Shown here: positions 4,991 to 61,184 of the stretch, in pieces
Numbering within the stretch: position 1 is the stretch's first letter
How the letters are laid out: each line of letters begins with the position of its first letter
NCBI GenBank assembly: GCA_001899635.1
Contig: MKVQ01000001.1
Coordinates: 62,001 to 126,000, forward strand
Direction: 5' to 3'
DNA: 64,000 nt
Source of the DNA: Myxococcales bacterium 68-20
GTDB taxonomy: Bacteria; Myxococcota_A; Polyangia; Polyangiales; Polyangiaceae
The notes under the pieces: generated by a model
The model's input: only the letters and a program-made list of their open reading frames with translations
Databases searched by the model: none
What the model was told of the DNA's origin: nothing
Program-made: the position numbers and the translations under genes

Positions 4991-5189
4991 GCCCTGAACG
5001 ACGCCGATGCGCTCGCTGCGGCCGGACGATGAGACGCCGGCGCAGCGGTCGCGTGGAGGACGGCTCGGGCAGTTCCTCGTCGGGGGCCCGAAGAAGGCTC
5101 GCCGCGCTACGGCCGCGCCGAGCTGCAAGGAGGACCGTTCCGGCGACCGCGAGCGCCACTGGCGCTCGATTCACGTACGCGCTAACTGG

Positions 5190-51560: not shown

Positions 51561-52514
51561 CTAAGTGCCGATCTTGTAGAAAGAGCGCGCCGTTTCGCCG
51601 AGCACGCTCGCGAGGGCAGCCTCGGGGAGGCGCCGCGCGGCGATCCGTTTCAGCTCCCGGTCCCACGCATACGGGATGTTCGGGAAGTCGGTTCCGTACA
51701 TGATGCGGTCGGGGCGAGCCTCGACGATGCGGAAGGCACGGGCGTCGTCCTCGAAGTAGCTCGCGAGCGCCATCGTCGTGTCGAGCCATAGGTTGTCGTG
51801 GCGCTCGAGCAGGCGCTGGTAGCCCTCGAATTCGTCGGCGCCGAGATGCGGGACTGCGAGGCGAAGCGTCGGATACGCGCGGAGCACCGCTTCGGTCCGA
51901 TCGACGTGGCAGAGCGTGTGGGGATCGCACTTGTACCCATTGCTCTTCGGCTCGCGACCCGCATGAATGACGAGCGGCATGTCATGGCGAATGCAGGTCT
52001 CGTAGATCTCGGCGAGCGCGGGGGCGTCGGGGGCGAAGCACTGCACGTGGCAATGGAGCTTCACACCGCGTAGACCGCTCGCAAAGGCATCCTCGAGGAT
52101 CCGGGGGGCATCGGGCTCGCCCGGCATCACCGTGGCCATGCCGGTGACGCGCGGGTTGGTCCTGACCACCTCGGCCATGTAAGCGTTCATGCCGCGCGCG
52201 ATGCCGGGCTTGTGCGCGTAGTGGAGCGCGACGATGTGGCCGACCCCTCGCGCGAGCGCGAAGGCGATGACGTCGGGCGTCTTCAGCTTGTAGCGGATCG
52301 GCCAGCCGTGGACGTCGAACCAGCGCCAGATCGCCTCGAAGAGGCGATCTGGAAACAGATGCACGTGCGCGTCGACCAGCGAGCCCCGCGCCACACCGAG
52401 CGACGGATCGACCTCGGTGCCTTCCTCTTCGTCGATGGGCGGCAGCGGCATCGTCCAGCCAGCCTCCCGCTCCGGGGGCGCGACACATGCGAGGCACGCG
52501 GGGAGGTCCGTCAT
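51561..52514 (-). CDS. Amidohydrolase 2 family metal-dependent hydrolase
   Basis: Protein of 317 residues. The start is the ATG that overlaps the upstream gene's stop (ATGA at 52511-52514). Metal ligands: HxH in DAHVHLFPD near residue 55, KLHCHVQCF, VIHAGREP, and the Asp in MYGTDFPNIPY, as in PF04909 enzymes (ACMSD, gamma-resorcylate decarboxylase and related). These cleave C-C or C-N bonds on carboxylated or cyclic substrates with a zinc or manganese ion. The exact substrate is unknown. The N-terminal 45 residues are an extra segment containing CLACVAPP. Confidence 0.85.
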   Translation of the reverse strand: MTDLPACLACVAPPEREAGWTMPLPPIDEEEGTEVDPSLGVARGSLVDAHVHLFPDRLFEAIWRWFDVHGWPIRYKLKTPDVIAFALARGVGHIVALHYAHKPGIARGMNAYMAEVVRTNPRVTGMATVMPGEPDAPRILEDAFASGLRGVKLHCHVQCFAPDAPALAEIYETCIRHDMPLVIHAGREPKSNGYKCDPHTLCHVDRTEAVLRAYPTLRLAVPHLGADEFEGYQRLLERHDNLWLDTTMALASYFEDDARAFRIVEARPDRIMYGTDFPNIPYAWDRELKRIAARRLPEAALASVLGETARSFYKIGT

Positions 52515-53329
52515 CCGTGCGCGTCGCGTGCTCGAGCCCGCTTCACCAGCGCGACCATCGCGCGTCGCACCTCGTCGGTGGTCGACACGGGCTCGTCGAA
52601 TGCGAGTCGCGCGCTCCGCGGCCCGCCGGGCGTCGTCGCGGTGAGCTCGAAGCCGTACCGATCGACCGCGGTCATGCTCGCCGTCGACGCCTCGGCGATA
52701 CCGGCGAGCGAGCGTGCGTACGCGAGGACGGCGTCCGCGTGGTCGTCGTTCATGTGCCTCAGGATCCCGCTCGATGCGGCCACGAGCGGATCGGCCTCTG
52801 CTGCGCGATAGTCCTCGGCGGTCACCCACGACATCCGACCGAAGCCGCCGACGTAGCGCAGCGCCGTCGGCTCGAGCCGGTAGAAGGCGAAGTCCGCGAA
52901 GTCGACGTAGCTCACGGCGGTCGGCTGCTGCGCGAGGAAGATCTCCCGAGCCGTCGCCCTCTCACTCTTGCTCTCGCTCTCGCGCACGGCCGTACACGAA
53001 CCCAGGATCGTCACGCGGCCGAGCGCGAGCGGCTGATCGTGGGAACCAGGCGCTTCCGCGATCAGAACGGAGGCCTCCGGTCGAGCCAGGAGGTTCCCGG
53101 TGTGCTCGGCCAGCGACGAGAGAAGGAAGAGCGGACGTCCGAGGTCGTCGATCGCGACGCTCACGAGCGAGCCATACGGATAGCCCGCCGGATCGCGCGC
53201 GATCGTGCAGAGCGTCGCCGCTCCCGCCTTGCGAACGAGCGTCCGGCAGCGCTCTGCGTGCGTGGGCGCGCGTGCGGCGCCGGCAGTGCGATCATCGAGC
53301 GAAGGTGGACGCTGATGCGGATCGGTCAC
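52511..53329 (-). CDS. HugZ-like pyridoxamine-5'-phosphate-oxidase-fold protein
   Basis: Protein of 272 residues (GTG at 53329). It has a split-barrel FMN/haem-binding fold: LVRKAGAATLCTIARDPAGYPYGSLV, PLFLLSSLAEHTGNLLARPEASVLI, DFADFAFYRLEPTALRYVGGFG, and a C-terminal DUF2470-like part with GILRHMNDDHADAVLAYA. HugZ proteins bind or degrade haem and related proteins bind FMN; the conserved C-terminal His residues fit haem binding. Its stop overlaps the amidohydrolase start, so the two are coupled. Cytoplasmic. Confidence 0.82.
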   Translation of the reverse strand: MTDPHQRPPSLDDRTAGAARAPTHAERCRTLVRKAGAATLCTIARDPAGYPYGSLVSVAIDDLGRPLFLLSSLAEHTGNLLARPEASVLIAEAPGSHDQPLALGRVTILGSCTAVRESESKSERATAREIFLAQQPTAVSYVDFADFAFYRLEPTALRYVGGFGRMSWVTAEDYRAAEADPLVAASSGILRHMNDDHADAVLAYARSLAGIAEASTASMTAVDRYGFELTATTPGGPRSARLAFDEPVSTTDEVRRAMVALVKRARARDAHG

Positions 53330-54005: not shown

Positions 54006-55868
54006 TCACTCGTCGGTCACGCCGAAGAGCCGCTCGAGGAGGTCCGTGACGGCATCGAGCGCGAGGAGCGGCTGGGCGAACAGCCGGCTCATCAACGGTG
54101 GGGGACACTTCACGACGGCCCGCTGGCGGGCGGCGGTGCCTTCCTCTCGTAGGATCGCGTTCGCCGCCTCGATCCCGGTGATCGCAGCGCGCTCCATGAA
54201 GAAGCCGCGATGCTCACGATCGTCCGTCTGCACCCAGTCGCCTGCGAACATCACGTTGGGGCGGCTCGGATCGCTCACCGCCGGCGCACGCTCGTGGTCG
54301 CCCGGAGCGAACAGCGAGAAGCCGTCGATGTGACGAAGAACGCGGCTCCGCTTCCGGTCGAGGCGGGCGCCGAGGTTCTCGTCCGGGAAATAGGCGTCGA
54401 GCACCCGGAGCGCTCGCTCGTAGATGTCGTCGTCGTCGAGCTCGACGAGGTGATCGCTGCTGCCGATGTGGCACTCCAGGAAGAGGTCGTCGAGCGCGGC
54501 GAATTCCTGCTGCATCGTGTGGAGGACGAAGAAGTTGTCGAGCTCGTCGTCGCTCGCAAAGACGCCGCTGTCGGGACCGCGCCACTTCGGCTGACCGGCG
54601 AGCGTGGAGAACCGCATGCGCAGGACGATGACGGCCGTCGTGCGAAGGAGCGGGACGCCCTCGGTCGACGCGTTCAGCGCGAGCTCGCGTGGGAACACCT
54701 CCTTCAGTGATGCGATGTCCATCGCGATGACGACGTAGTCGGCTCGCTCGAGCCCGTCTCCGCCGGCGTCTCCGGAGCCGCCGACGATCCAGGCACCGCT
54801 CCGAGGGTCGTGCTGCAGCGCCACGCCGTCGAGTGGGCGCTGAGGCGGGCCGCGGAGCACCTGCCCGTCGGCACCGAACTGGCCGCCGTGACAGGGGCAG
54901 TGGAAGACCGAGCCGCTCGCGTTCGTCTCGACCGACAGACGGCAGCCGCGGTGGGTGCACGTTCCTTCGAAGGCCTGGAGGCGGCGCTTGGCCGGCTCCC
55001 AGCTCATCGCGAGGTACTTGTCGCCGACTTGTCTCATGCTCAGCGCCGCCTCGTTCCCGAGCTCGTGCTCGGAGATGGCGGTCTTGGTCGAGACGGCGAC
55101 GAAGCGTCCCTTCTCGAAGAGGAAGGACCGTGCAGGTACACCGAGACGGAAGCGGACGCCGCGGGCCTCGAGCCACTTTCGCCATGGATCGAGGACGAGC
55201 GGGACCATCCCGCCGTCGATCCACTCGGCTTTGACGGCGTCGGCGTCCTCCGCGACGTAATAGGCGAGCGCGTCGAGCGCGACGCGCGCGCTGACCTCGT
55301 CGCCGCGGGCATAGGCGAGGTTTCTCAGGTACGGCATCAACAAGAGGCGCGACATGCGGGCCGAGACGCCATGGTCCTGGAGGAGCGCCGAGAACGTGTT
55401 CTCGTCGAAGGCCCGCTTCTTCATGCTCCCCGCCGCGTAGGTGCGCATGAGGAACGGCAGCGCGAACGCGTAGTCGCGAAGGCGAAGCACGCCGGGAGGG
55501 ACCATTCGCAGGAGGAACAACGGGGCGATGCCTCGCGCCTTGGCGAGCTCGGTGACCTTCATCGTTCGACCGGGCCCCGCCGCGCCGGTCGTCCGTGTCT
55601 TCACGAAGACCGAGGCGTCGATCTCGGCATCGGCCCACAGGCCCTTGAGGTTCGCGTAGCGAGGGAAGACTCCATGGATCCCGTGCTCGATCGTGTGACC
55701 GAGGTCCTGGTCGAAGTAGGACGAGCATCGCCCTCCCACCGAGCTCTCCTTCTCGAGAACGGTGACCTCGAGCCCTGCGTCTGCGAGCACGTGCGCCGCC
55801 GCCATCCCCGCGATGCCTGCGCCGACGACGAGCACGCGCTTCTTACCGACTCCAACGGCATCCGCCAT
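54006..55868 (-). CDS. FAD-dependent oxidoreductase with an internal Rieske domain
   Basis: Protein of 620 residues from the ATG at 55868 (GAGG upstream). It starts like a phytoene-desaturase/amine-oxidase flavoprotein: VLVVGAGIAGMAAAHVLADAG, a GG motif in SSVGGRCSSYF, and a substrate-domain middle. At about 300-340 sits a complete [2Fe-2S] Rieske site: Cys304-x-His306 and Cys324-x-x-His327, with the disulfide pair Cys309/Cys326 in CTHRGC and CPCHGG as in bc1 complexes. The FAD domain resumes after it and ends with VMFAGDWVQTDDREHRGFFMERA. An electron path from the cluster to the flavin is inferred. It follows an acetoacetate-decarboxylase-like gene by 24 bp. Confidence 0.85.
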   Translation of the reverse strand: MADAVGVGKKRVLVVGAGIAGMAAAHVLADAGLEVTVLEKESSVGGRCSSYFDQDLGHTIEHGIHGVFPRYANLKGLWADAEIDASVFVKTRTTGAAGPGRTMKVTELAKARGIAPLFLLRMVPPGVLRLRDYAFALPFLMRTYAAGSMKKRAFDENTFSALLQDHGVSARMSRLLLMPYLRNLAYARGDEVSARVALDALAYYVAEDADAVKAEWIDGGMVPLVLDPWRKWLEARGVRFRLGVPARSFLFEKGRFVAVSTKTAISEHELGNEAALSMRQVGDKYLAMSWEPAKRRLQAFEGTCTHRGCRLSVETNASGSVFHCPCHGGQFGADGQVLRGPPQRPLDGVALQHDPRSGAWIVGGSGDAGGDGLERADYVVIAMDIASLKEVFPRELALNASTEGVPLLRTTAVIVLRMRFSTLAGQPKWRGPDSGVFASDDELDNFFVLHTMQQEFAALDDLFLECHIGSSDHLVELDDDDIYERALRVLDAYFPDENLGARLDRKRSRVLRHIDGFSLFAPGDHERAPAVSDPSRPNVMFAGDWVQTDDREHRGFFMERAAITGIEAANAILREEGTAARQRAVVKCPPPLMSRLFAQPLLALDAVTDLLERLFGVTDE

Positions 55869-55886
55869 CCTCACCTCTGCTTCTTC

Positions 55887-55926
55887 TTCTGGTCACTTCT
55901 GGTCGCTTCTGGTCGCTTCTGGTCGC
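55887..55926 (-). repeat. Four 10-bp tandem repeats at the end of the decarboxylase-like gene
   Basis: TTCTGGTCAC (55887-55896) and three TTCTGGTCGC copies (55897-55926) lie at the 3' end of the gene on the minus strand. Ten is not a multiple of three, so copy-number changes would alter the C-terminal frame and stop position. Confidence 0.75.
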
Positions 55927-56711
55927 GATTGCTCCGAGTCCTCGTCGAGCTCGTGGGGGGCACCGAGGTGCGTCGAGACGAGCGTCCACGACTGACACCA
56001 CAGGCTCTGGAGCTCGCGGCCACCGACGGCGATCGAGACGTCTCGGAAGCTCGTGCCCACGCCGCTCGGTGTGAGCGCGATCCGCGCACGGCGTGCGGGG
56101 CCGTCCGCGGTCCCCAGGACCTCGATCCAGCGCGTCAGGAGGCGGACGCCGAGGCCGAAGGAGAGGCGAAGCGGGAGCGCGAAGAGGCTTGCGGCGACGC
56201 CATGGCATCGCGCGCGAATCGCCATGTCGGAAGCGCTGGCCGCGAGGTGCGCCGCATCCATATCGACGACCGTCGACGTGTCGAGGCGCTTCGGGAGCCC
56301 GTAGTGGAGCCTGCCGAGCTCGACGGGCGTGGGGTCGTCGAGCAGCATGTCGAACGGCAACGATCGGAGCGTGAGCCCGCGCCGGACCACGATGGCGGCG
56401 ATGACCTCCCGATACCGGATGGGCAGCTCGCGCGGTGGCCGTTCGAAGTCGCTCGCGATCAAGATCCCGAGCTGGCGCCCGAAGAGCCGCATCGGCGTGT
56501 AGCCGTCGGGAGGCCCGATCGGCGCGTCGGTCCTCCACGTGCCGACGGCGATGAACGCGCGACCGGCGAGCTCGTACGGCGGATCGAACTCGCCCCAAGC
56601 ACCCGCAGAGGTGCCCCGGCCACCCGCAGTGGAGTCGCTCGGCGCCGAAATTGGCCCGCTTCCGCTCTTGCTCTTGTTTTTGCCCAAATCCGCGGTTCTA
56701 TATTTTTCCAT
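55893..56711 (-). CDS. Acetoacetate-decarboxylase-like protein
   Basis: Protein of 272 residues from the ATG at 56711. It has the split pattern of the acetoacetate decarboxylase fold: FDPPYELAGRAFIAVGTW, YREVIAAIVVRRGLTLRS, GRLHYGLPKRLDTSTV (the family's G-x-P-K turn) and ALPLRLSFGLGV. The usual catalytic Lys in the EIWGFPKK motif may be the Lys of GLPKR, though the acidic partner is changed. The first 15 codons are unusually AT-rich (ATGGAAAAATATAGA). The C-terminus (RPEATRSDQK) is generated by the 10-bp repeats and is probably not structural. Cytoplasmic; substrate unknown. Confidence 0.65.
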   Translation of the reverse strand: MEKYRTADLGKNKSKSGSGPISAPSDSTAGGRGTSAGAWGEFDPPYELAGRAFIAVGTWRTDAPIGPPDGYTPMRLFGRQLGILIASDFERPPRELPIRYREVIAAIVVRRGLTLRSLPFDMLLDDPTPVELGRLHYGLPKRLDTSTVVDMDAAHLAASASDMAIRARCHGVAASLFALPLRLSFGLGVRLLTRWIEVLGTADGPARRARIALTPSGVGTSFRDVSIAVGGRELQSLWCQSWTLVSTHLGAPHELDEDSEQSRPEATRSDQK

Positions 56712-56731: not shown

Positions 56732-57457
56732 ATGCCGCATGACGTTCGCTCGAATGTGGGTGTGTCGAACGATGAGTCCCACCACGAGGCGCGCTGGCCT
56801 CCTCGCGGGGGAGCGCTCGATCGGCTGGCGCGCTGGCTCGAGGGCGGAGGCGACGGCGTAGAGACCGACCGGCTCCTCGATCTCTCGACCGTGCTCGCCG
56901 CGCCGGCGCTCGATGCGATCCATCCGGAGGTCACGCGCTTCTACCTCGACCCCGGACGCTACCGAATGCGCGCGGGCGTCCACGCGTCGCGCTTCAGCGG
57001 AGCGCTCCTCGATCTCCTCGCGCTCGTCTCTCGGCAGGGGCGGTTACCCGATCGCGATCGCGGCGACGAGGGCGGCGACGGATTCGAGGGGTATCCGGTC
57101 CGCCAGGTGCTCTACCGCGACGCGCGCGGGCGGACCCACTGGGACCGGTACATCCTGATCGACCGCACGTGGCAGCGCTTCTTCATCGCGCGGCTCGAGG
57201 GCCAATCGAGCCACGTCGTCGAGACGTTCGTCGTCTATGGCATTCCGTTCGCGCTCACGTTCCGAGCGAGCGTCGAGGACGACGACCTCGTCCTGTCGCT
57301 CGTCCCGAAGTGGTCGTCACCGATGTCGTGGTTCGCTCGCGTCGTCTACCGCACCGGGATCTCGGAGCACGGCGTCCATACTCGGGGCGACTTTCGCGTG
57401 CCGATCGTGGGCTTCCGCGTTCGAACCGAGTTCAGAGCCTCGCGCACCGAGCCGTAG
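56732..57457 (+). CDS. Hypothetical protein (DUF4166-like?)
   Basis: Protein of 241 residues starting at the ATG at 56732, only 20 bp from the divergent decarboxylase-like gene's start. The body has strand-rich segments (GRTHWDRYILIDRTWQRFFI, VVETFVVYGIPFALTFRASV) and the tail GDFRVPIVGFRVRTEFRAS. The order of an aromatic-rich strand block, an Arg/Trp motif and a final beta pair is reminiscent of DUF4166 proteins, but I cannot confirm that. No signal peptide. It may share a promoter region with the redox pair on the other strand. Function unknown. Confidence 0.55.
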   Translation: MPHDVRSNVGVSNDESHHEARWPPRGGALDRLARWLEGGGDGVETDRLLDLSTVLAAPALDAIHPEVTRFYLDPGRYRMRAGVHASRFSGALLDLLALVSRQGRLPDRDRGDEGGDGFEGYPVRQVLYRDARGRTHWDRYILIDRTWQRFFIARLEGQSSHVVETFVVYGIPFALTFRASVEDDDLVLSLVPKWSSPMSWFARVVYRTGISEHGVHTRGDFRVPIVGFRVRTEFRASRTEP

Positions 57458-57473: not shown

Positions 57474-59045
57474 TCAGTCCAAGCTCGAGCCGAGCTCGTT
57501 CGCGCCGCTGTCCTTCGGCGTGCGTGTCATCGTGCGAGTCCCTTCGTCGGCATCGTGGGAGTCGACCGGCGTGATGCCGGGCGGGGTGCAGGGAAGGTCG
57601 ACGCGGAAGGCGGTCCCCAGTCCACGCTCGCTCTCGCAGCTCAGCGTTCCTCCGTGCGCACGAGCGATCCCGTGGCTGATCGAGAGCCCGAGACCTGTCC
57701 CTTCGCCCACGGGCTTGGTGGTGAAGAACGGGTCGAAGACGCGGTCCGCGATCTCCGCCTCGAACCCGTCGCCGTTGTCGACCACCTCGAAACGCACCCA
57801 GCCGGCCTTCGAGGGCAGCCTCTTCACGCTGACGATGATCGTCTTCGCGTCCGTCCGCTCCGGAGAACGCCGATTGAGCGCATCTCGGGCGTTGGTGATG
57901 AGGTTCATGAGGATTTGCTGCAGCTGCTGGATCCGGGAGATGAGCTCGGGCAAGTCGTCTTCGACGTGGACGTCGAGCGTGATCATGTCCTTCCGGAGCG
58001 GACCGCGGAGCAGCACCAGTGTGTCGTTGACGATCTCGCGCACGTCCGCCGCGATCGCGTGTGACTCGTCCGCACGTCCGAAGCGGAGGAGGTTCCGGAC
58101 GATCTCCGCCACGCGCTTCGCCTCGCGCTCGATCTCCTCGGCGAACGTCCGCTCCGGCGTGTCCTGGGGGAGTCCGCGCTTCATGATCTGCGCGTAGTTG
58201 AGGATCCCGTGGATCGGGTTGTTGATCTCGTGGGCGACGCCCGCGGCGAGCGTCCCGAGCGAGTCGAGCTTCTGCTTGTGCATCACCGGCGCGGCGAGAA
58301 GGAGCTTCTGCCGCTGTTCCTCGAGCCGCACCACCGCTTCTTCCTGCGCGAGGATCGACCGCTCGAGCCGCCTCCCCAGGACGCGCCAGCAGCTGAGGAC
58401 CAGCGCGAAGAACCCCATGTGCTGGAAGAAGTAGCCGTCTCGCAACCCGACGAAGATCCCGAAATCGAGGACGGTGGCCGTGAAGTAGAGGCCGCAGCCC
58501 ACGGCGATCGGCGCAGACTCCCGGCGTGCCTGGGGATCGGTGAAGAGCTGGGCGGCGAAGCACGTGAAGGCGATCGCCACCCAGAGGAGATATGCGGTTC
58601 CGAGCGGCGTGAAGAGGAGTCGGTGGCGATGCTCGGTCGCGAGGTCGGTGAGCAAGAACGAACGCACCATGATCTCGCGCTGGAAGATCATGTCGAGGAC
58701 GACACCCCCGGCGAAGAGGGTCGTGAGCGCCAGGTTGAGCTTCTGGCCCATGACCAGCCACCGCGGGCGCCGTTCGGTGAGCGTGAACGTGAGCGCGCCG
58801 AAGACGTACGTGATGTACGGCGTGAAGGCGCTTATCGACTGGCCCCAGCGGAGCGCTCGCGCGGGCGAGGTCTCCGAGAGGTAGCGATAGGTGACCAGGC
58901 AGTACGCGCCCTCGAGCACGCTGAGGGCGAGGAGATGGACATAGCTACGGCCACGCGCCTGACACGCGAGGTCGAGCGCATGAAGCGCGAAGCCGAGGCA
59001 GACCCCGGCGGTCACGAGGAGGCTCGCGAAGTACCAGTCGCTCAT
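57474..59045 (-). CDS. Orphan membrane sensor histidine kinase
   Basis: Protein of 523 residues from the ATG at 59045. The N-terminal half has about seven transmembrane helices (to residue 225), a 7TM sensor type. The kinase core has the phospho-acceptor His272 in [17 protein letters not shown], the N box [14 protein letters not shown], and the ATP lid motifs VVDNGDGF and [12 protein letters not shown]. It senses an unknown membrane or periplasmic cue and would phosphorylate a response regulator encoded elsewhere, since none is adjacent. It is likely expressed alone. Convergent with the hypothetical gene (16 bp). Confidence 0.93.
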
Positions 59046-59383
59046 GATGGCCGCGTCGTCACCGGCTGGAAAGGATGGCAGGATCCTCCATTGCGCATGG
59101 TGACACGCCCGTGGAGCTGCCGTCATCGGTGAATTCGATGAAACGGCCTAATGCGGCGCCGATCGGGCCGAGGGCGGTCGGACCGCTGACCGCCCTCGCA
59201 TCGACCCGGCTGCCCTCGACGGCTGAGGTCGGTGTTTCAACGATGATTCGAGACGAGCATGGCGTCCGTGCGCTCCCGAACGACGCGCGGCCATCTGTCG
59301 CCGAAATGAGGCATGGGCGATGACGGGCCGCTCACCTCGAATCGCTTCTGGAGGCGCGACCGGTCCCGCGTCACCATGGGCGC
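59046..59383. other. Divergent intergenic region with a hairpin
   Basis: About 340 bp between the histidine kinase and FMN reductase starts. It holds a perfect 11-bp inverted repeat (59169-59198). No gene or convincing promoter was seen. Confidence 0.5.
59169..59198. promoter_or_regulatory. 11-bp inverted repeat
   Basis: CGAGGGCGGTC (59169-59179) pairs perfectly with GACCGCCCTCG (59188-59198) around GGACCGCT. It lies between two divergent promoters, so it is a candidate operator or a hairpin in one leader. Confidence 0.45.
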
Positions 59384-59990: not shown

Positions 59991-61184
59991 TCAGCCGGGG
60001 AGGGCGCAGAAGCCTTCGTAGTCGATGTAGCTCGTGATCGACGGGCTCGGACCGCACACCGGGCACTCGGGGGAGCGGCGGAGCTTGAGCTCGCGGAACT
60101 TCATCTTGAGGCTGTCGTACGTGAGGAGGCGTCCGACGAGCGCGTCGCCGCGGTTCAAGATCAGCTTGATCGCCTCGGTCGCCTGGAGGAGGCCGATGAC
60201 GCCCGGGAGGATCCCGAGGACGCCGGCCTCCTGGCAGCTCGGCGCGAGGTGCGGAGGCGGCGGCTCCGGATAGAGGCAGCGGTAGCAAGGCCCTGCCTCG
60301 ATGCCGAGCTGCTTCGCGGCCTTGTCGGGGACGAAGGTGGTGAGCTGGCCGTCGAAGCGGAAGATCGATCCGTGGACGACGGGCTTGCCGAGCCACACGC
60401 TGGCGTCGTTGACGAGGTAGCGGGTGGGGAAGTTGTCGGTGCCGTCGACGATGACGTCGTAGTCGGCGAAGAGACGCTCGACGTTCGAGCTGTTGACGCG
60501 CTCGCGATAGCCGACGACCTTCACGTCCGGGTTCAGATCCTTCAGCGCCTTCTCGGCGCTCTCCACCTTCGGCTGTCCGACGCGGCTCGTCGCGTGGAGG
60601 ACCTGGCGCTGGAGGTTCGACGCGTCGACGGTGTCGGCGTCGACGAGGCCGAGCGTGCCGACACCCGCCGCGGCGAGGTAGAGGCCGGCCGGTGATCCGA
60701 GGCCGCCGGCGCCGATCAAGAGGACCTTGCTCTTGAGGAGCTTCGCCTGACCTGCCTCGCCCACCTCGGGCAAGAGGAGGTGGCGCGAGTAGCGATCGCG
60801 CTGCGCGTCGTTCAGCTGCGGCGGGGTATCCATCGGGTACCCGAGGTCCTTCCAGCGGACGAAGCCCGGGTTCGCGGTCTCGACGTTCGTGTAGCCGAGC
60901 TCGGCGAGCGTCTTCGCTGCAAGCGCCGAGCGCGTGCCGCCTGCGCAGTAAGCGACGATCTTGGTCGACTTGTCGGGGATACGGCCCTCGACCTGGATCT
61001 CGAGGAAGCCTCGCGGGATCGAGATCGCGCCCGGGATGTAGCCCGCGCGGAACTCTTCCTTCTCGCGCACGTCGAGGAGCGTGTACGGCTCCTTCGCCTC
61101 GAGCCGGCGCTTCAGCTCGTCGAGCGACACTTCCTTGGTCTCGCGTCGAACGTTTGCGATGAGATCGGTATAGGTCGTCGGCAT
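59991..61184 (-). CDS. Rhodanese-ThiF/MoeB fusion protein
   Basis: Protein of 397 residues. A rhodanese domain comes first (about 20-125; active-site Cys80 in YCAGGTRSA), followed by an E1-like adenylyltransferase domain with GAGGLGSP (158-165), a catalytic-type Cys317 in APSCQEAGVLG, and zinc-binding CxxC pairs at 300/303 and 374/377. In MoeZ/MoeBR the order is the reverse (ThiF then rhodanese). It would adenylate the C-terminus of a ThiS or MoaD-like carrier and load sulfur onto it for thiamine, molybdopterin or cysteine synthesis. No carrier gene is in the window. Driven by a promoter at 61256-61284. Confidence 0.9.
   Translation of the reverse strand: MPTTYTDLIANVRRETKEVSLDELKRRLEAKEPYTLLDVREKEEFRAGYIPGAISIPRGFLEIQVEGRIPDKSTKIVAYCAGGTRSALAAKTLAELGYTNVETANPGFVRWKDLGYPMDTPPQLNDAQRDRYSRHLLLPEVGEAGQAKLLKSKVLLIGAGGLGSPAGLYLAAAGVGTLGLVDADTVDASNLQRQVLHATSRVGQPKVESAEKALKDLNPDVKVVGYRERVNSSNVERLFADYDVIVDGTDNFPTRYLVNDASVWLGKPVVHGSIFRFDGQLTTFVPDKAAKQLGIEAGPCYRCLYPEPPPPHLAPSCQEAGVLGILPGVIGLLQATEAIKLILNRGDALVGRLLTYDSLKMKFRELKLRRSPECPVCGPSPSITSYIDYEGFCALPG

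Follow-up and report, generated by a model that had tools for sequence, protein, structure and literature searches.

Flavin desaturases with an internal Rieske [2Fe-2S] domain are known for aromatic carotenoids, which are used as geological biomarkers, and CrtU/CruE annotation serves to score genomes for aromatic-carotenoid potential, as in the available part of one survey (PMC10576062). In the accessible text of another report, the okenone genes of Thiodictyon are given as crtIB and crtEC-cruSO-crtYU and called functionally assigned, the ring desaturase being renamed CruE (PMC10604819). Excerpts of three further sources concern Synechocystis sll0254, whose annotation is identical to that of a Calothrix protein considered below (PMC7296061), which is given as the counterpart of a crtU (PMC7880944), and for whose product a lycopene cyclase/oxygenase role has been reported and disputed (PMC4470828). 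Here we describe a flavoprotein gene with an internal Rieske domain, and the acetoacetate decarboxylase (ADC)-like gene that adjoins it, in a 64,000-nucleotide stretch of Myxococcales bacterium 68-20 (contig MKVQ01000001.1, positions 62,001 to 126,000; hereafter the window). Predicted domain order and alignment with relatives identify the flavoprotein family as that of the internal-Rieske desaturases of the CrtU/CruE kind, and the gene content of the genomes that carry the pair supports the view that this branch has left carotenoid synthesis. We know of no explanation for what the inserted Rieske cluster does in CrtU, and the tight pairing with an ADC-fold gene offers a defined two-gene system for testing the cluster's role.

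Results

The flavoprotein gene (54006..55868, minus strand) opens at ATG 55868 after a purine-rich, Shine-Dalgarno-like stretch, with an alternative GTG at 55874, and runs to its stop at 54006; counted from this ATG, as are all residue numbers below, its product would have 620 amino acids. Pfam splits Amino_oxidase (PF01593, E = 3e-30) into two pieces with a Rieske [2Fe-2S] domain (PF00355, E = 2e-13, 50.5 bits; 54831..55067, minus) between them, set into a flavin-domain hairpin, which bears out an earlier, sequence-only reading of the window that had set this domain between the halves of a flavin adenine dinucleotide (FAD) flavoprotein. The FAD-binding Rossmann motif VLVVGAGIAGMAAAHVLADAGLEVTVLEKE (55752..55838, minus; PF13450, E = 2.2e-16) has glycines that are invariant in 21 of 21 aligned rows. 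The first ligand pair, Cys304-Thr-His306 (54951..54959), the second, Cys324-Pro-Cys326-His327 (54888..54899), and the disulfide pair of Cys326 and Cys309 (54942-54944), all on the minus strand, agree to the residue with the full Rieske site that had been named, and the disulfide cysteines beside the ligands assign the window domain to the bc1/b6f type. An AlphaFold2 model of the flavoprotein, made from single-sequence input, had a mean predicted local distance difference test score of 38.4.

To place this protein we compared 20 Rieske-bearing proteins, the window protein included, from 15 phylum loci, three further genus loci and two plasmids, gathered by a search with the window protein (E ≤ 1e-40), a seven-protein profile (E ≤ 1e-60; 377 genomes) and a genus search (E ≤ 1e-40; 12 genomes). 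The profile, built wholly from Rieske-bearing proteins, matched in 14 of the 377 phylum genomes, at 15 loci that all have the four-ligand site; Rieske-bearing queries favour relatives with the domain. Three candidates were scored per genome in the flavoprotein searches with the window protein and with the profile at E ≤ 1e-60, seven in the ADC search of the phylum and at most 15 in that of the order, so that weaker loci may be missed, and all candidates were scored in the genus searches (flavoprotein profile, PF00494, PF06314). One genus match (G445:C148:3-719) is a contig-edge fragment and is excluded from the counts.

The insertion site is identical in all 20 proteins; alignment with Streptomyces CrtU puts it in a hairpin that, in the window protein, precedes the strand ADYVVIAMD, and all four cluster ligands (CxH...CxxH) are kept throughout, although some relatives are only ~23-27% identical to the window protein. 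This conservation ruled out a chance open reading frame or a chance Rieske motif. The sequence-only reading had regarded the internal placement as unusual; Thiodictyon CrtU/CruE and the Calothrix protein have the domain inserted at this very position, and within the compared group, as aligned here, internal placement is the rule. The bc1-type disulfide that it had also proposed is present in the window protein and is not a fixed feature of the family: both cysteines occur in 16 of the 20 proteins and in half of the ADC-paired flavoproteins (3/6), while the paralogue in the window's own genome (C23), G443, G444 and G027 have neither. As for homologues without the site, which that reading took to count against it, only Streptomyces CrtU came to light, with the whole domain absent, and these Rieske-bearing queries brought up no relative whose site had decayed. 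Dating the gain or loss of the domain was dropped, since the three non-Rieske rows join with support of only 55/38.

In the phylogeny, the window protein forms one clade with G347 and G449 (100/100), and the own-genome paralogue forms a second with G443 and G444 (100/100), both in a first tree and in a second that includes two non-Rieske outgroups (a third, L073, was not included). The ADC-paired clades stand apart from the CrtU-like proteins with 100/99 support in the first tree; once the outgroups are included, the non-CrtU side is supported at 86/99 and the CrtU-like side at 82/86. The part of the tree that holds the ADC-paired clades also holds G027 and the G307/G068/G174 group, and the two clades are not firmly joined as sisters. 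Two terminal features agree with this split. A twin-arginine-like N-terminus, judged by eye, occurs in 12 of the 20 proteins, including those of Thiodictyon and Calothrix, and in none of the six ADC-paired proteins or G027 (seven of the 20 lack the stretch; G307 is cut near a contig edge, and the start of G449 is not settled). An extra C-terminal tail shows the converse distribution: present in 7/20, it measures 36-41 residues in the six ADC-paired proteins and G027 (37 in the window protein, 54009..54119, minus) against 0-15 in the other 13, and in six of the seven tailed proteins it closes with LLGV or LFGV followed by a few more residues. The tail may perhaps be another way of meeting the membrane. 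By its separate branch, its lack of a twin-arginine-like N-terminus, its extra tail and its ADC-like neighbour, the window gene is predicted not to be a plain CrtU.

Some flavoproteins elsewhere in the set sit among carotenoid genes: G295 has a phytoene/squalene synthase, CrtI and the flavoprotein in a row on one strand, and G108 clusters the flavoprotein with a lycopene cyclase and with a CrtI-like gene that scores just below its cut-off. We compared the carotenoid gene content of 17 genomes, five of them ADC-paired, with up to 49 candidates per genome scored for TIGR02734 (49 of 63 in the window's genome, G000) and up to 63 for PF05834 (63 of 68 in G000). The phytoene desaturase family TIGR02734 was matched at E ≤ 1e-60 in none of the five ADC-paired genomes and in nine of the other 12. 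For the lycopene cyclase family PF05834, matches below 1e-40 occurred in 0/5 and 6/12 genomes, respectively, and nothing better than 3.3e-6 was seen in any ADC-paired genome; weaker matches, found in all 17 genomes and in 10 of 14 controls including E. coli, look like generic FAD motifs. PF00494 (squalene/phytoene synthase) had no match in G347 and a divergent match over the cut-off in each of the other four ADC-paired genomes, the G000 copy being closest to squalene synthase TIGR01559 (66.8 against a cut-off of 286.75 bits). We thus found no phytoene desaturase and no convincing lycopene cyclase in the five ADC-paired genomes, a search that did not extend to CruA- or CrtYcd-type cyclases.

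The ADC-like gene (55893..56711, minus; ATG at 56711 to TGA; PF06314, 12.3 bits) lies upstream of the flavoprotein gene, and the 24-base-pair gap given by the sequence-only reading holds for the ATG start (18 with the GTG). Its suggestion that the two are coupled also gains from the wider distribution. An ADC-like profile matched in two of 377 phylum genomes (E ≤ 1e-12) and five of 183 order genomes (E ≤ 1e-8), yielding six loci (two in G000, one each in G347, G443, G444 and G449) from five species of one genus, and at every one of the six an internal-Rieske flavoprotein gene adjoins. Viewed from the flavoprotein, six of the seven genus loci have the partner, and the seventh is a contig-edge fragment. 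The window's own genome (11.9 Mb) has two PF06314 matches at E ≤ 1, and these lie beside its only two such flavoproteins (E ≤ 1e-40). No ADC-like profile match was found in the other flavoprotein-bearing genomes of the phylum search, and the genus has further ADC-family matches, G449:C44, G447:C652 and G036:C10 among them, that do not adjoin such a flavoprotein, which counts against a wider tie; the association holds for this ADC sub-family and this genus. Gene order varies, with the ADC-like gene upstream in the window and G449 and downstream in G347 and the three C23-type loci. We found no account of such a pair in the literature, which, with most subscription journals beyond reach, is weak evidence that it is undescribed.

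Among the ADC-like proteins, a GRxxYGxPK motif with its lysine (lysine 141 in the window protein, 56289-56291, minus) is invariant in 6/6 partners, and so is the glutamate within a YxE motif. We take the lysine of such a G-PK motif to be the Schiff-base residue of acetoacetate decarboxylase; it aligns with the PKK of the solved structures 3bgt/3bh3, at E = 0.077 only. The C23 partner passes the PF06314 cut-off (53.2 bits), and the window protein aligns with it. In hhalign comparisons the window protein matches the C23 type at 77%, and the C23 type matches ordinary ADCs at 35%, although one of its members has the Pfam score of 53.2 bits. A single-sequence search of the PDB with the paralogous ADC gave nine weak matches, none of them an ADC, and a plasmid tblastn search with it gave no match. 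Direct evidence for the window protein as a predicted ADC is weak. The 3' end of the gene (55885-55935) holds four copies of TTCTGGTC at 10-base spacing, which code for a short C-terminal repeat.

Beyond the pair, the window and G449 share the gene order kinase, 241-residue gene, ADC, flavoprotein. The divergent 241-residue gene (56732..57457, plus) has no Pfam match and is 53% identical in G449 (tblastn), and the membrane histidine kinase gene (57474..59126, minus; PF00512, PF02518) stands beside the pair in both G347 (54%) and G449 (61%; tblastn). Of 14 window genes tested, the kinase, the ADC-like gene and the flavoprotein alone were found in the 16 kb surrounding the G347 locus. At the C23 locus a different histidine kinase with PAS domains lies nearby (L012:1739-3643), and genes similar to the neighbours there occur at the G443 and G444 loci, as judged by sequence start. 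A 205-residue protein without a Pfam or NCBIfam match (L012:3799-4416) follows the ADC gene at this locus, with the PAS-domain kinase next. The C23-type flavoproteins themselves (L012:5331-7610, L055:9799-12066, L056:6517-8805; 754-759 residues) have an extra insert of more than 100 residues before the Rieske domain and no disulfide cysteines.

Several further observations stand apart from the pair. The internal-Rieske flavoprotein of G307 (L041:33-3665) is followed closely, on the same strand, by HemE (392.7 bits, cut-off 302.95) and HemH (264.2, cut-off 124.6), which makes it a candidate Rieske-bearing oxidase of the heme pathway. A HugZ/HutZ-like protein with a CREG barrel and DUF2470, scoring below the HugZ cut-off, is encoded two genes downstream of the window flavoprotein (52511-53329, minus). 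At 59991-61184 (minus) we saw by eye alone, with no search made, a ThiF/MoeB-like domain preceded on its N-terminal side by a rhodanese-like stretch, the reverse of the order in MoeZ. The plasmid tblastn search with the window protein returned 10 records, including Candidatus Thiodictyon syntrophicum pTs485 and Calothrix sp. NIES-4105, and a genome-contig scan with the single window protein had as its sole match a Kosakonia FAD motif. A scan of viral contigs gave four short matches, confined to the FAD motif or the Rieske part; one contig, L067 (IMGVR_UViG_3300029305_005708), codes at 5001-5159 for a segment with 36% identity to residues 298-342, in the Rieske part.

Discussion

We tentatively favour, with a little less than even confidence, the interpretation that the window flavoprotein is a re-purposed internal-Rieske flavin desaturase of the CrtU/CruE kind whose substrate is not a carotenoid and probably resembles a lipid, and which works in series with a Schiff-base partner of the ADC fold. 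From the observed anatomy, pairing and genomic context we infer the following steps. Fold, FAD motif and relatedness to CrtU suggest that FAD would take hydride from a hydrophobic substrate, probably an isoprenoid or a lipid-like compound. The inserted [2Fe-2S] cluster would then take the electrons of FADH2 singly and pass them to a one-electron carrier as acceptor, a relay for which the invariant Rieske ligands argue. The ADC-fold partner, by its pairing and motif, would act on the oxidised product through a Schiff base at its conserved lysine, which points to a beta-keto acid, to be decarboxylated, or another carbonyl substrate; more speculatively, the pair may be under the control of the adjacent histidine kinase, or its product may be what that kinase senses. 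Mutant work on bc1 complexes links the disulfide to the potential of the Rieske cluster, so that a lower value would be expected in the disulfide-less paralogue. That one sub-branch has lost the disulfide suggests a potential that is not tightly fixed. A bolder version, which we consider unlikely as a whole, is a two-enzyme module, present twice in the window's own genome, that carries out the oxidative decarboxylation of a lipid-like acid to a small molecule sensed by the adjacent kinase, and whose origin would be a ring desaturase of the carotenoid type, recruited in bacteria that lack the usual carotenoid pathway.

A number of results weigh against the re-purposed desaturase and its partner. 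The PF06314 match of the window ADC-like protein (E = 0.12) falls below the gathering cut-off of 29.8 bits, and comparison of this protein with three ordinary ADCs by hhalign gives a probability of 14%. A single genus accounts for all ADC-paired cases, and the trees contain long branches, flagged by a program warning, with middling support for some joins. The ADC-paired genomes are 98, 96, 96, 83 and 72% complete, so that only in the first three can carotenoid genes be called absent with confidence, and the tests for absence covered part of the candidates and of the cyclase types. Finally, G213 has a CrtU-like protein yet no match to TIGR02734, PF05834 or PF00494; absence of such matches alone therefore does not prove a new function.

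A purely structural or regulatory Rieske domain, with the flavin alone sufficing for catalysis, is unlikely in our judgement: the CrtU of Streptomyces does without the domain within a carotenoid cluster and the disulfide is lost in four of the 20 proteins, but the four ligands are invariant in relatives as divergent as those compared here. We give still less credence to an ordinary CrtU/CruE enzyme making aromatic carotenoid rings. The fold and the Rieske insertion site are the same, and CrtU/CruE is annotated, in the available part of the survey, in Myxococcota with photosynthesis genes (PMC10576062); a carotenoid pathway in the same genome and grouping with CrtU/CruE proteins in the tree, however, were found for none of the five ADC-paired genomes, all of which lack strong TIGR02734 and PF05834 matches among the candidates scored, G347 is without a phytoene/squalene synthase match, and the branch lacks the twin-arginine-like N-terminus.

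It is quite improbable that the flavoprotein replaces the hydroxysqualene dehydroxylase HpnE or another oxidoreductase of the squalene pathway. HpnE (TIGR03467) is its best NCBIfam match (E = 2.5e-36), true HpnE exceeds the cut-off in none of the 12 genus genomes, and G000 has a squalene-synthase-like gene. Yet the match reaches 125.9 bits against an equivalog cut-off of 283.05 and is unspecific, HpnE being best also for the Streptomyces CrtU, Thiodictyon and Calothrix proteins; moreover, G347 has the pair and no squalene/phytoene synthase match, and the ADC partner would be left unexplained. A tetrapyrrole substrate, as for protoporphyrinogen oxidase of the same fold, is the most improbable of these alternatives, for despite the HemE and HemH that follow the G307 relative and the HugZ-like gene in the window, the TIGR00562 score is 25.3 bits against an equivalog cut-off of 97.85, and the window's heme-related neighbour was not found within 16 kb of the G347 locus or 15 kb of the G449 locus.

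If the re-purposed desaturase is the right interpretation, a sister branch of CrtU/CruE exists in genomes without the usual carotenoid genes, and annotation from architecture alone can over-call the aromatic carotenoid pathway. Comparison with described systems sets out what is shared and what differs. Thiodictyon WP_172965417.1 (pTs485) is likewise an amine-oxidase-fold flavoprotein with the Rieske domain at the same place and all ligands and disulfide cysteines, but it is 24% identical to the window protein, has a twin-arginine-like N-terminus and no C-terminal tail, and, unlike the window gene, adjoins crtY and two crtD-annotated genes and no ADC-like gene. We equate it, by gene position, with the crtU of the crtEC-cruSO-crtYU group as that group is given in the accessible text (PMC10604819). 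Calothrix BAZ65011.1, annotated 'putative phytoene dehydrogenase Rieske iron-sulfur component', shares the architecture at 23% identity, and its gene precedes a carotenoid oxygenase gene. Streptomyces WP_243279860.1, which we call CrtU from its context in a carotenoid cluster next to crtI and lycopene cyclase genes, has the same flavin fold without a Rieske domain. On the partner's side, the GRxxYGxPK lysine motif and the YxE motif resemble those of the acetoacetate decarboxylase family PF06314, whereas the residue after the motif lysine is Lys in solved ADCs and Arg in the ADC-like partner.

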